Shown here: positions 5,715 through 10,185 of the stretch, piece after piece
How the letters are laid out: each line of letters begins with the position of its first letter
Numbering within the stretch: the first letter of the stretch is position 1
Origin: a virus
DNA length: 44,488 nt
IMG/VR virus record: IMGVR_UViG_3300022198_002718
Span: 1 to 44,488 of that record
Direction: 5' to 3' (one strand)
Notes under the pieces: model-generated
What the model was told of the DNA's origin: nothing
Database searches by the model: none
What the model saw: the letters and a program-made list of their open reading frames with translations, nothing else
Position numbers and translations under genes: made by a program

Positions 5715-5896
5715 TATTGCTCCTGTGAGGAAGCGGTGTCTTCGCCTTCTTCTTCAGTTGAGCCAGTCTCTTCAGTTTGTTCTTCAGAGCCTGTTTCTTC
5801 TGTAGTTTCCTCAACAACTTCCTCAGTTGATGAAGTATCTACTTGTTCTTCTTTATCTCCGCATGCAAAGAATAGTGTCATTAATAATTTAGTCAT
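5714..5896 (-). CDS. Putative small acidic lipoprotein
   Basis: The 60-residue product starts MTKLLMTLFFACGDKEEQ: a basic N-terminus, a short hydrophobic run and FFAC, which resembles a lipobox with the lipidated cysteine at residue 12. The rest is almost entirely Glu, Thr, Ser and Gly in repeats such as EETTEETGSEEQ, so the mature form would be a small disordered acidic tail on a lipid anchor. The signal is shorter than usual (11 residues), which lowers confidence in export. The ATG at 5896 has TAGGAGTTAAA, and the stop overlaps the uvsX start (TAATG). Phage lipoproteins of this size, such as T5 Llp, can block superinfection, but that role is only a hypothesis here. Confidence 0.6.
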   Translation of the reverse strand: MTKLLMTLFFACGDKEEQVDTSSTEEVVEETTEETGSEEQTEETGSTEEEGEDTASSQEQ

Positions 5897-7354: not shown

Positions 7355-8134
7355 TTATTCATCCTGCATAAAAGCTGCAAATGCTTCATCTACACTATCC
7401 CCAGTTTGTTGTGTGTACTTTTGAGACTCGCTGGAAGATGACTCTGCTGAGTGATCGGAGGACAAGTAACCATCCAACAAAGTCTGAACTTCCTCTGGAG
7501 TTTTTCGATCAAATAAGTTGTCGATAACAGGAACAGAGTCCAAAAGATCTTGACAGTCAGCCACGGCATCGTCACATAATACAGATGGTCGACGTCGAGG
7601 TTGCAAAGCTGTTTTGGGGAAGGCTCCCGGACCAGATGCTAATGTATAAGTCAACTTAATGTCTGTACCAGTTTGTGGGTCTGTAATATCTCCATAGTCA
7701 GGGTCCAATACATATCCCAAAAGGGTTTCATAAGCAGTCTTACCATAAGCCCAGATTCGTACACCTTCAGCTTCAGCTCCTCGAACAAGAACTGGTGAAT
7801 AATAACGCTTTCGAGCAAACAACTTTTTAGCTTCATTCTTGAGATTTTGATCGTCATTCTCAACACCGTCACGCCAAAGTTTTGATGCAAAGTCGCAAAT
7901 AGCACACTCGCCTCCGTCGTTTCGTTTGTTACAGTAGATTCCCGGATTCTTTCCTACATTGTAGTGAAAGTGGAATTCACGGAACGGATCACCATCAGCA
8001 GTTGGAAGAATTCGAATATGTTGAGAACCAGCTTCGGGTTTCCACATAGTTGATTTACGTCCAGATGCAGTTGGTTTGCCGCCGGTTTTTGATTGCTCTA
8101 GTTTTGCTCGCATTGCTTCTAAATTAATAGCCAT
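7355..8134 (-). CDS. Single-stranded DNA-binding protein, T4 gp32-like
   Basis: The 259-residue product coats single-stranded DNA during replication and recombination. The zinc site H55-x12-C68-x8-C77-x2-C80 nearly copies the T4 gp32 spacing (H-x12-C-x9-C-x2-C). The basic N-terminus (MAINLEAMRAKLEQSK) fits the cooperativity domain, and the tail is Ser/Gln-rich ending DEAFAAFMQDE, the acidic tip that recruits partner proteins. Length is a little below T4 gp32 (301). The ATG at 8134 follows AAGGAGTATATT. The gene has its own promoter (8233-8261), a structured leader of about 90 bases and a terminator, forming a single-gene transcript. Confidence 0.93.
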   Translation of the reverse strand: MAINLEAMRAKLEQSKTGGKPTASGRKSTMWKPEAGSQHIRILPTADGDPFREFHFHYNVGKNPGIYCNKRNDGGECAICDFASKLWRDGVENDDQNLKNEAKKLFARKRYYSPVLVRGAEAEGVRIWAYGKTAYETLLGYVLDPDYGDITDPQTGTDIKLTYTLASGPGAFPKTALQPRRRPSVLCDDAVADCQDLLDSVPVIDNLFDRKTPEEVQTLLDGYLSSDHSAESSSSESQKYTQQTGDSVDEAFAAFMQDE

Positions 8135-8182
8135 AATATACTCCTTGGTTTGTCTATTTTTTTGTGTTTTATCACTAAGGTA

Positions 8183-8206
8183 GGCAGGCTATTTTTTCAT
8201 CCCGCC
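8183..8206 (-). promoter_or_regulatory. Leader hairpin of ssb, possible translational operator
   Basis: In the mRNA leader GGCGGG pairs with CCUGCC (six pairs, one G-U) around a 12-base A-rich loop. It is followed by an unstructured A-rich run (ACAAAAAAAUAGACAAACC) up to the ribosome binding site. T4 gene 32 is autoregulated through a folded leader plus an unstructured A-rich stretch that gp32 coats cooperatively. The layout is similar, but the function here is inferred. Confidence 0.45.
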
Positions 8207-8232
8207 CCCGTTGTAATTCGTTTTATATTATC

Positions 8233-8261
8233 AATATAACATATTTAAAATGGTTTGTCAA
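8233..8261 (-). promoter_or_regulatory. Sigma70-type promoter for ssb
   Basis: TTGACA (8261-8256), a 17-base spacer ending in TGT, then TATATT (8238-8233) on the minus strand. Transcription should start near 8226 and give a leader of about 92 bases before the ssb ATG. Confidence 0.88.
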
Positions 8262-8284
8262 ATAAAAAAGTAAAGTTTTTTAAA

Positions 8285-8336
8285 AAAGTGAAAATCTCAA
8301 AAAATGGTCAAAAAAAATTTTAAGGATTTTCACTTT
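8285..8336 (-). terminator. 12-bp perfect inverted repeat, probable second terminator
   Basis: AAAGTGAAAATC on the plus strand at 8285-8296 is matched perfectly by GATTTTCACTTT at 8325-8336, with a 28-base A/T-rich loop between. Read on the minus strand the stem runs into TTTTTT. It lies between the small tRNA-like RNA and the ssb promoter and would separate the two transcripts. It could also be a protein-binding site. Confidence 0.55.
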
Positions 8337-8340
8337 CTAG

Positions 8341-8383
8341 AAAAAAAGTACACCCGACAGGATTCGAACCTGTGACCGTGCAC
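8341..8383 (-). ncRNA. tRNA-like acceptor/T-arm minihelix RNA (candidate)
   Basis: The minus strand holds a perfect T-arm: ACAGG (8373-8369), the canonical seven-base loop TTCGAAT, and CCTGT (8361-8357). Outside it GUGCAC (8383-8378) pairs with GUGUAC (8353-8348) with one G-U, leaving GGUC opposite CGG, and seven U follow (8347-8341). No D-arm or anticodon arm exists: the bases just upstream are the promoter at 8390-8418, whose start point by spacing is the G at 8383, the first base of the stem. The whole unit reads as a 36-base hairpin RNA plus U run. Alternatives are a tRNA 3'-half relic acting as terminator, or an attP-like remnant. The structure is seen; the RNA's existence is inferred. 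Confidence 0.55.
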
Positions 8384-8389
8384 ATTATT

Positions 8390-8418
8390 AATATAACATA
8401 GTTTTAATACCTTGTCAA
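8390..8418 (-). promoter_or_regulatory. Sigma70-type promoter driving the tRNA-like minihelix
   Basis: TTGACA (8418-8413), a 17-base spacer ending in TGT, then TATATT (8395-8390) on the minus strand. Six bases separate the -10 from the G at 8383 that opens the minihelix stem. No protein gene lies between this promoter and the U run. Confidence 0.87.
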
Positions 8419-8424
8419 GTATTT

Positions 8425-8802
8425 TTATAAAATATTTTTATCTCTCGCATGTTGCTCCCTATGACAGTTAGCACATAACAAAACACATTTATCTAATTCC
8501 TCTTTTACCTTGTCTGAGAAAGATGTGAGTCTTGCTTTCGCAATTGAAAAGTCTTTCTGAGAAGGATCTAAGTGATGAAACTCTAGGGCGCCATCATATT
8601 TGTTATATCCACAATGGATACACTCTCCGCCTTTATATTCGATACACTTTCTCTTAAAAGATCTTTGTCGTTCTAGAGTTTGTTCTTTTGTGCACACCTT
8701 ACAATAAGGAGAAAGATCGGTTCCCTGCCTTCTTCTGTAGAAGTTCTCTGATAAATGTGTTTTGTTGCACCTAGCACAGTGCTTTTCGTTTGGTATAGAC
8801 AT
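8425..8802 (-). CDS. HNH endonuclease, free-standing homing type
   Basis: I place the start at 8802 because GGGGGA stands a few bases before that ATG; an in-frame ATG at 8817 lacks such a site. The 125-residue product has a treble-clef-like N-terminus (C9-x2-C12 and C34-x2-C37), a second pair C61-x2-C64, the HNH core EFHHLDP (74-80), and LLCANCHREQH (108-118). These pairs and histidines form the metal finger of the HNH family, so it should cut DNA. Such genes often spread as homing elements beside tRNA and replication genes. This one lies exactly between a complete tRNA-Arg and the tRNA-like half. An ACTATTTA motif 22 bases upstream suggests expression with the late genes. Confidence 0.88.
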   Translation of the reverse strand: MSIPNEKHCARCNKTHLSENFYRRRQGTDLSPYCKVCTKEQTLERQRSFKRKCIEYKGGECIHCGYNKYDGALEFHHLDPSQKDFSIAKARLTSFSDKVKEELDKCVLLCANCHREQHARDKNIL

Positions 8803-8824
8803 TTTTATTTCCCCCATTTATTAA

Positions 8825-8832
8825 TAAATAGT
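8825..8832 (-). promoter_or_regulatory. ACTATTTA motif (putative late promoter) before HNH gene
   Basis: The exact 8-mer ACTATTTA, followed by TTAATAAA, stands 22 bases before the HNH start at 8802. Next to it is a 7-bp hairpin (GGATAAA/TTTATCC, 8833-8854) on the tRNA side. It is the only copy of the motif that I noticed outside the structural genes. Confidence 0.5.
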
Positions 8833-8863
8833 GGATAAAGTAAAAAGTTTATCCAAAAAAGAG

Positions 8864-8935
8864 TACACTCACCAGGATTCGAACCTGGAACAAAAGATTA
8901 GAAGTCTCCTATGATATCCCTTTCACCATGAGTGC
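8864..8935 (-). tRNA. tRNA-Arg (anticodon UCU)
   Basis: A complete 72-base cloverleaf folds on the minus strand. The acceptor GCACTCA pairs with TGAGTGT (first pair G-U) and the discriminator is A. The D-arm is GTGA/TCAT, the anticodon stem GGAGA/TCTTT with loop CTTCTAA, and the T-arm CCAGG/CCTGG with loop TTCGAAT. The anticodon TCT reads AGA, a codon used often in these genes. CCA is not encoded; CTC and six T follow. It is probably transcribed from the promoter at 9299-9327 together with the 88-residue gene. Confidence 0.92.
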
Positions 8936-8962
8936 AAAATGCGGCCTTTTGAGGTAGCCGCA
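8936..8962 (-). terminator. Hairpin with short T run before the tRNA
   Basis: TGCGGC (8945-8940) and GCCGCA (8962-8957) form a six-pair stem on the minus strand, followed by TTTT. It stands between the 88-residue gene and the tRNA. The T run is short, so it may be a leaky terminator or a processing site at the tRNA 5' end. Confidence 0.5.
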
Positions 8963-8990
8963 AACCTTTATTACATAAGCAAGGAGGTGC

Positions 8991-9257
8991 TTAAAATAAG
9001 TTTACACTAACTTGTTGTGTAGACGATGTAACATCTCCAACTTGAGTGTTGGAGTTGAATGTACGATATGCTTGACGATCAATATCATAAACGGTTTCAT
9101 ATCCTTCTTGTAGGTTTCGTTCTCGACTAATGGATGGAAACACTCCGCTTGGTGCTTCGCTTGGTCGAACGAAGTTCATGGTTCGTTGGCTACCTCGTTG
9201 GGTAACAAAAGTACCAGTGTATACAGTCATTGATTGTGAATTATTGTTGTTGCTCAT
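8991..9257 (-). CDS. Small protein, possibly SH3-barrel/DUF2693-like
   Basis: The ATG at 9257 is chosen because GGAGG stands four bases before it; an upstream in-frame start at 9308 would lie in the promoter -10. The 88-residue product has a polar N-terminus (MSNNNNSQSMTVYTGTF), then FVTQRGSQRTMNFVRP, which recalls small phage SH3-like proteins with a T-x-x-G-x-x-R-T-M strand pair, and a polar C-terminus. The resemblance is by eye only. The gene lies between its own promoter and tRNA-Arg, and its 3' untranslated part contains CACCTCCTTG. Confidence 0.7.
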   Translation of the reverse strand: MSNNNNSQSMTVYTGTFVTQRGSQRTMNFVRPSEAPSGVFPSISRERNLQEGYETVYDIDRQAYRTFNSNTQVGDVTSSTQQVSVNLF

Positions 9258-9298
9258 AAAACCTCCATATTGTTTTGAGTCATTGTTGTTGTTTATAT

Positions 9299-9327
9299 AA
9301 TATAACATAGTTTTTATACCTTGTCAA
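9299..9327 (-). promoter_or_regulatory. Sigma70-type promoter for 88-residue gene and tRNA-Arg
   Basis: TTGACA (9327-9322), a 17-base spacer ending in TGT, then TATATT (9304-9299) on the minus strand. The -35 starts 4 bases beyond the thioredoxin stop. The spacer closely resembles that of the minihelix promoter at 8390-8418. Confidence 0.88.
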
Positions 9328-9330
9328 GTA

Positions 9331-9642
9331 TTATTTTAAAGTTTTTTGCAAAATTTCTTCGAGATCATTTTTGTTCTTTGCTCCCATGAACTCTCCAACT
9401 TGTTCGCCATCTTTCATCAAGATGACTCGTGGAATGCTTCGAACTCCGAACTGTTGTGCTAACTCTCGATTTGAGTCAACATCGACTTTTAGAAATATAA
9501 TGTCTGTCTCCGTGTCTTCAATGTCTTCGACAGTGCGAGCAAGCATCTTGCATGGTCCGCACCAGTTTGCCGAGAATTGAACATAGACAGAACCTTGTTG
9601 CGTGAGCTGGTTAAACTCATCGGTTCCGTTAACGTTTTTCAT
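9331..9642 (-). CDS. trxA: Thioredoxin
   Basis: The 103-residue product has the active site WCGPC (27-31) in the context FSANWCGPCKML and the cis-proline loop SIPRVILMKDG, and its length is that of a normal thioredoxin. It should re-reduce the C-terminal cysteine pair of the ribonucleotide reductase at 101-1960 and may support other phage enzymes. In T7 the host thioredoxin is a polymerase processivity factor. This phage carries a family A polymerase, but I see no clear thioredoxin-binding loop in it. The ATG at 9642 follows GGAGGAAAG and has its own promoter. Confidence 0.95.
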   Translation of the reverse strand: MKNVNGTDEFNQLTQQGSVYVQFSANWCGPCKMLARTVEDIEDTETDIIFLKVDVDSNRELAQQFGVRSIPRVILMKDGEQVGEFMGAKNKNDLEEILQKTLK

Positions 9643-9665
9643 CTTTCCTCCAACGTTATGTTAAT

Positions 9666-9694
9666 AATATAACATATTATGAAATGGTTGTCAA
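9666..9694 (-). promoter_or_regulatory. Sigma70-type promoter for thioredoxin
   Basis: TTGACA (9694-9689), a 17-base spacer ending in TGT, then TATATT (9671-9666) on the minus strand. The TGA inside TTGACA is also the stop codon of the upstream 164-residue gene (9693-9691), so gene end and promoter share bases. Confidence 0.88.
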
Positions 9695-10185
9695 GTTAAG
9701 TCGCAAACTTTTTTTAAAAAAATTGACTCTGCTTGAATTTGTTCGAGTCTTGCGATATAGAAGTCATTATCAATGTGGCCATCTCTCTTGCCTTGCTGAA
9801 GCCATTTCATTTGTTCTGATATGTAATGAGCAACTTCTTCTTCTGTCTCGAAAAGATATTCAGAATAGTCCATTCCTTCTCTTATCGACTTTTCATATTG
9901 TGGCCACAGTTCAATTGCGGTCTTGTAAGTTTGTCGATAGTGCTTTGCATCTTCAAGATGATTCTCTTCTGAGAATTGAACATAGACTCTCGGAGATCCA
10001 AACTTCTCTTTTGTTTGTAGAACTGTGATGTTTGATAAGGTCATGAACTCTCCAGTAAAGTGGTTTCTTCTCGGGCCTATAAGTGCATAGCCTATCCAGT
10101 CTGCTATCAGACTTATTTGTTTAAAGTAATCTTTGTGTTCTTCGCTTTCAGTTCCCCAAAACGAATAGTAAATTTGTTCAGTCAT
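9691..10185 (-). CDS. Unknown protein, 164 residues
   Basis: The product begins MTEQIYYSFWGTESEEHKDY and is a mixed alpha/beta, fairly acidic soluble protein with many aromatic residues and no signal or membrane segment. I recognise no family. The ATG at 10185 follows CAATGGAGGATGA, and the start overlaps the end of the upstream 55-residue gene, so it is the last cistron of a chain running from the polymerase promoter. Its stop codon lies inside the -35 of the thioredoxin promoter. Confidence 0.75.
   Translation of the reverse strand: MTEQIYYSFWGTESEEHKDYFKQISLIADWIGYALIGPRRNHFTGEFMTLSNITVLQTKEKFGSPRVYVQFSEENHLEDAKHYRQTYKTAIELWPQYEKSIREGMDYSEYLFETEEEVAHYISEQMKWLQQGKRDGHIDNDFYIARLEQIQAESIFLKKVCDLT

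Follow-up and report, generated by a model that had tools for sequence, protein, structure and literature searches.

The 44,488-base virus record IMGVR_UViG_3300022198_002718 of IMG/VR, hereafter the window, carries on its minus strand a compact element in which a consensus promoter runs directly into a T-arm and a 3' acceptor strand. Judged by its sequence, this element is the 3' half of a broken phage tRNA-Arg(UCU) gene, because it is identical to the ends of intact tRNA-Arg genes in the syntenic relatives L447 and L451; the half is probably a scar rather than a dedicated RNA gene. We propose, with considerable though not full confidence, that homing-type cassettes disrupt tRNA genes of phages, supply a substitute tRNA of matching isotype, and leave half of the resident tRNA behind. 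Directly seen in support of this proposal are the complete match between the half and unbroken tRNAs of syntenic phages, the precise limits of the exchanged block, and the recurrence of the arrangement with other nucleases and other isotypes.

Family matches to a UvsX-like recombinase, a DnaB-like helicase, a gp32-like single-strand DNA-binding protein (SSB), a ribonucleotide reductase, and a tail sheath protein place the window in a T4-like phage. Along the minus strand, the locus comprises a gene for a protein of 105 amino acids (aa), an intact tRNA-Arg(UCU), an HNH endonuclease gene, the promoter, the half-tRNA element, the SSB promoter, and the SSB gene. The layout of the element is TTGACA-17-TATATT-6 nt-GTGCAC-GGTC-ACAGG(TTCGAAT)CCTGT-CGG-GTGTAC-T7. 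A spacer of 17 nucleotides (nt) separates the -35 hexamer TTGACA (8418-8413) from the -10 hexamer TATATT (8395-8390), which is preceded by TG, and the predicted start, G8383, is the first base of an outer stem in which GTGCAC (8383-8378) pairs with GTGTAC (8353-8348) through one G-U and otherwise regular pairs. Inside it, the T-stem ACAGG/CCTGT closes perfectly on the loop TTCGAAT (8373-8357), and seven T come next (8347-8341). A first-pass annotation, made from the letters alone, had described this anatomy correctly base by base and had listed a relic among its possible meanings. That option is borne out, in that syntenic relatives have an unbroken tRNA-Arg(UCU) whose 3' half consists of this T-arm and acceptor strand. 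The intact tRNA-Arg and the HNH nuclease gene directly upstream had been left unconnected to the element. With its D-arm and anticodon arm absent, the element falls outside the definition of a tRNA gene, and both ARAGORN and Rfam pass over it, calling only the adjoining intact tRNA-Arg.

The origin of the half emerges from related loci, which were gathered by searches with the SSB (80 loci) and with the 105-aa protein (33 loci). Among the relatives closest to the window, intact tRNAs frequently sit in the slot that separates the 105-aa gene from the SSB gene. Both L447 and L451 have an intact tRNA-Arg(UCU) in this slot, and its last 31 bases, CGGTCACAGGTTCGAATCCTGTCGGGTGTAC, equal window positions 8378-8348 without a single difference; the same end recurs with two differences in L134 and with four in L126. 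A BLAST search of isolate phages with the promoter/half region gave weak matches only, and most of the locus is covered by no isolate. The comparison with another relative, L125, delimits what was exchanged. Sequence identity amounts to 99.5% across the 1,052 bp ending at 8350 and to 96.8% across the 124 bp that begin at 8936; in between, the window has the tRNA-Arg, HNH gene, promoter, and half tRNA, and L125 has a different tRNA-Arg and a tRNA-Met. Thus, the exchanged block spans from a tRNA start to a tRNA end. The HNH gene is small, intergenic, and missing from the otherwise near-identical L125, as is typical of free-standing HNH homing endonucleases. The intact tRNA-Arg of the window is of a divergent type common to L448, where such a tRNA-Arg precedes an SSB promoter (AATACTTGACAAGGTAGTAAAACTATGTTATAATA) that hardly differs from the promoter ahead of the half tRNA. 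On these similarities, the window looks like a joint of an L448-like left part plus the HNH gene with an L447/L451-like tRNA, which would be its putative parents.

The same arrangement occurs twice on a 184-kb contig (L093/L446). One copy consists of a tRNA-Arg with a long variable arm, a 196-aa HNH gene (phrog_10822), a promoter, and a tRNA-Arg half with GTACAC replacing GTGCAC; the other consists of a tRNA-Met, a 129-aa HNH gene (phrog_2255) on the opposite strand, an SSB-type promoter, and a tRNA-Met half. The window half and these two each begin at the GGTC of the variable loop, and each has as neighbors an HNH gene and a complete tRNA of its own isotype. The closest relatives of the window HNH protein, in L520 and L521 (68% identical), are likewise encoded between a broken and an intact tRNA-Arg: each of these genes comes after a tRNA-Arg that breaks off in its D-arm (GCACCAGTAGCTCAGTTGGATAGA, continuing as ATTAAAT in L520) and shares bases with the beginning of an intact, divergent tRNA-Arg(tct). 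Among isolated phages, members of the HNH family are found among or beside tRNA genes in FelixO1 (three HNH genes among the tRNAs), nataliec, SME50, VCPH, PAK_P2, ZPAH1, VS1, and MS02; around the relative in LVR16A, no tRNA is annotated within 2.5 kb. A separate locus, L590 (1853-2592, minus strand), has a tRNA-Phe 5' half, a 200-aa endonuclease gene (phrog_15137), and an intact tRNA-Phe overlapping the nuclease stop; L577, which shares the upstream flank, has its tRNA-Phe unbroken.

In the homing account, co-infection would bring the HNH enzyme together with a phage genome still free of the cassette, where the enzyme would cut or nick the tRNA-Arg gene, presumably inside the gene itself. Recombination repair would then copy the cassette, made up of the intact divergent tRNA-Arg(UCU), the HNH gene, and a standard phage promoter, into the broken gene. 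The incoming tRNA would restore arginine-tRNA function, perhaps in a form that is no longer a target, and the right-hand repair joint would retain the resident tRNA only from the variable loop onward. The promoter now at the joint, of which a copy with 89% identity lies upstream of the 105-aa gene, probably fires, since it closely copies promoters used elsewhere in the phage group; a short RNA starting near 8383 is thus probably made as a by-product.

Several observations weigh against this account. No true empty site turned up, which would be the same strain with an unbroken tRNA-Arg ending in identical bases, and the geometry varies, in that L520 and L590 retain the 5' half instead. The promoter-plus-half unit is common to the window and L093 though their HNH genes differ. 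The half shows no decay, which could reflect constraint or simply a recent arrival. Moreover, where an HNH gene is only a passenger, ordinary recombination in a tRNA region would produce similar traces.

A minihelix RNA with a function of its own, driven by the promoter, had been put forward in the first-pass annotation: a ~36-nt hairpin plus a U tail that would mimic the acceptor/T-arm half of a tRNA and bind or titrate tRNA-handling factors. We regard this as unlikely, and as equally unlikely its variant in which the promoter and hairpin were retained after tRNA breakage as a dedicated half-tRNA-mimicking small RNA, running from the first stem base to the U-run, with its pairing kept in the window and L093 while the HNH genes turned over. 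What speaks for such an RNA is that in the window the predicted start coincides with the base that opens the stem and in L093 lies near it, that the pairing in L093 survives the changed base of GTACAC, and that this unit is shared despite different flanking HNH genes. The element folds at -14.1 kcal/mol (RNAfold, z -2.2; 5 of 200 shuffles equally good). The outer stem is also rarer than in chance leaders, its stability being equaled in 2 of 232 real promoter leaders and in 0.4-0.8% of random ones. However, if GCAC goes back to the original first bases of the tRNA, this rarity is accounted for; indeed, GCAC begins the tRNA-Arg genes of the group, so the outer stem can be an inherited remnant of the acceptor stem. 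The completed IMG/VR scan (TTATAWT + GGTC + T-arm) recovered the unit in L093 alone, and a compensatory double change is not seen in these two examples. L093 is thus the sole relative that keeps promoter, start geometry, and pairing, and even there the tRNA-Met half has a promoter and T-arm without a convincing outer stem. The T-run is no special trait of the hairpin, as it also lies 3' of intact tRNAs in L126, L134, and L137.

A simple internal deletion, by which a promoter-bearing tRNA-Arg lost its D- and anticodon arms with the HNH gene as a mere neighbor, is quite improbable in our estimation. The junction GTGCAC|GGTC does retain both acceptor strands, and the phage contig L576 has TTGACA-17-TATAAT-8 nt-intact tRNA-Arg. 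Nevertheless, the close relatives have no promoter directly ahead of the tRNA, no intact tRNA of this type so arranged turned up in a local search, and a deletion accounts neither for the HNH gene and the second tRNA-Arg nor for what recurs in L093, L520, and L590. The further suggestion of a phage attachment site (attP), with the tRNA 3' half serving site-specific integration, draws on the fact that tRNA 3' halves are classical attachment cores. Over 29 nt (8377-8349), the half does match bacterial tRNA-Arg genes exactly, in 38 stretches, but phage tRNAs match equally well. A tyrosine integrase was not found in the window, itself a fragment, or in eight related records including the 184-kb contig, nor a serine recombinase in the five related records searched for one, and the replication and tail genes are T4-like. 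As these searches brought up no recombinase, we rejected this reading, to which we attach only the slightest probability.

Free-standing homing endonucleases in tRNA regions are already known, and SegB of T4 and T6 is the experimental precedent for the homing account. The conserved part of its recognition sequence is said, in a 2008 paper on SegB, to lie in the T-stem-loop, which we take as an unconfirmed lead only. In T4, SegB is encoded between tRNA-Arg and tRNA-Ile and targets the tRNA region (PMC2988022), and in T6 it drives amplification of tRNA-Tyr (PMC13096335). The likeness consists in a nuclease gene among phage tRNA genes (in the window, an HNH gene between an intact and a half tRNA-Arg), in a tRNA region that is both target and passenger, and in nuclease-driven recombination that changes tRNA copies (PMC2988022, PMC13096335). 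In contrast, SegB is a GIY-YIG enzyme, whereas the window nuclease is assigned to HNH by phrog_2255 and related families and that of L590 is of another endonuclease type; a same-isotype replacement tRNA with a leftover half is not described for SegB in the excerpts of those two papers (PMC2988022, PMC13096335). The Mob-type free-standing HNH enzymes of T4 are also small intergenic genes close to essential genes, but the Mob targets named in that source are protein genes, whereas the window joint lies in a tRNA gene (PMC2988022). The same source notes that the promoter of a downstream gene can overlap such a homing gene, as with segG and gene 32 in T4 (PMC2988022). Partial tRNA genes likewise trace integrating elements inserted at tRNA genes, from which the window differs in having a homing-type nuclease and no detected integrase (PMC9897764). 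Finally, the PeSL cassettes of T4-like phages may resemble the window in a repeated promoter beside a stem-loop at a recombination border (cited in PMC4503421); the window has four promoter-containing copies of a 65-nt repeat plus a stem-loop, but its stem-loop is half a tRNA.

A broken tRNA with a same-isotype replacement across several nuclease families was not found in a limited search of the open-licence literature. The comparisons expose a recurring arrangement in which a broken tRNA gene and an unbroken one of matching isotype (Arg, Met, Phe) occur together with free-standing phage nucleases of several families. If the homing account is true, tRNA genes would be both target and payload, which would explain the rapid turnover of phage tRNAs and the tRNA halves that annotation misses. 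Phage tRNAs can counter tRNA-cleaving defences (PMC13096335), and nucleases that swap tRNA alleles could matter in that contest.

The features of the locus are collected in the table. The window HNH protein matches the Pfam HNH model only weakly, below its cut-off. An automatic scan of 8100-9420 reported no terminators, its loop limit excluding both hairpins present. The promoter-containing 65-nt repeat has four dispersed copies within 1.5 kb (8223-8287, 8380-8444, 9289-9353, and 9656-9720), which could act as recombination joints.

Table. Features of the window and of tRNA-like RNAs in relatives
Feature	Position	Strand	Basis or remark
105-aa gene, synteny marker upstream of the tRNA slot	8991..9308	-	present with tRNA slot and SSB in many relatives
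Intact divergent tRNA-Arg(UCU), proposed replacement tRNA	8863..8935	-	ARAGORN; Rfam tRNA, 57.1 bits; same type in L448
HNH homing-type endonuclease, 130 aa	8425..8817	-	phrog_2255, E 2.4e-34; kin at broken tRNA-Arg genes and in tRNA clusters
Sigma70-type promoter TTGACA-17-TATATT, extended -10, predicted start 8383	8390..8418	-	11/12 match to consensus
5' outer-stem strand GTGCAC, probable remnant of tRNA 5' end (GCAC)	8378..8383	-	pairs with 8353-8348; tRNA-Arg genes of the clade start GCAC
tRNA-Arg(UCU) 3' half, variable loop to 3' end; gives T-arm and 3' acceptor strand	8348..8378	-	31/31 against L447 and L451
Seven-T run after the tRNA half	8341..8347	-	read from sequence
Longer hairpin then T-runs, inverted repeat; possible real terminator	8276..8345	-	similar sequence in L125 and L127, downstream of intact tRNAs
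gp32-like SSB, next gene downstream	7355..8134	-	phrog_1192, E 6e-28
Promoter of the SSB gene	8233..8261	-	between the half-tRNA element and the SSB gene
Block exchanged relative to L125, tRNA start to half-tRNA end	8351..8935	-	flank alignment
84-87-nt tRNA-like RNA	L130:148-231, L132:3708-3791, L137:2657-2740, L139:1202-1288		
84-87-nt tRNA-like RNA	L145:3706-3789, L456:4312-4395, L470:4593-4677, L471:4503-4586		

Wide scans for a promoter with a T-arm returned, among the matches listed, mostly coding sequence, ordinary tRNAs, and tRNA halves resembling attachment cores. An exact TTGACA-17-TATAWT with a full 5-bp T-stem was found outside L093, again among the matches listed, in L214/L278, L352, L388, and L418/L420; the match in L388 resembles a stretch of an ordinary tRNA, and those of L418/L420 were taken as chance. 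In L214 (6560-6640, minus strand) and L278, a consensus promoter directly precedes a tRNA 3' half without an outer stem, and a tRNA-Thr comes immediately after; the tRNA cluster at this place includes an HNH-like gene as well. A conserved tRNA-like RNA of 84-87 nt lies upstream of the gp32-like gene in relatives. Besides an acceptor stem and a T-arm, it has a short arm (CUGUA/UGCAG), and where a tRNA has its anticodon arm there is a stem whose loop measures ~19-22 nt. Compensatory changes are seen at three pairs; the RNA is called by neither ARAGORN nor Rfam and has no match in the isolate-phage collection. The viral contig L492 (4375-4477, minus strand) carries a permuted tRNA-like element with its 3' half before its 5' half, whose best Rfam match, to YrlA (Y RNA-like), has an E of 1.9e-6 and reaches 37.3 bits against a gathering score of 69. 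In the relative L465, positions 5730-5794 match the HDV-like ribozyme family HDV-F-prausnitzii (37.5 bits, E 6e-4; gathering score 44).
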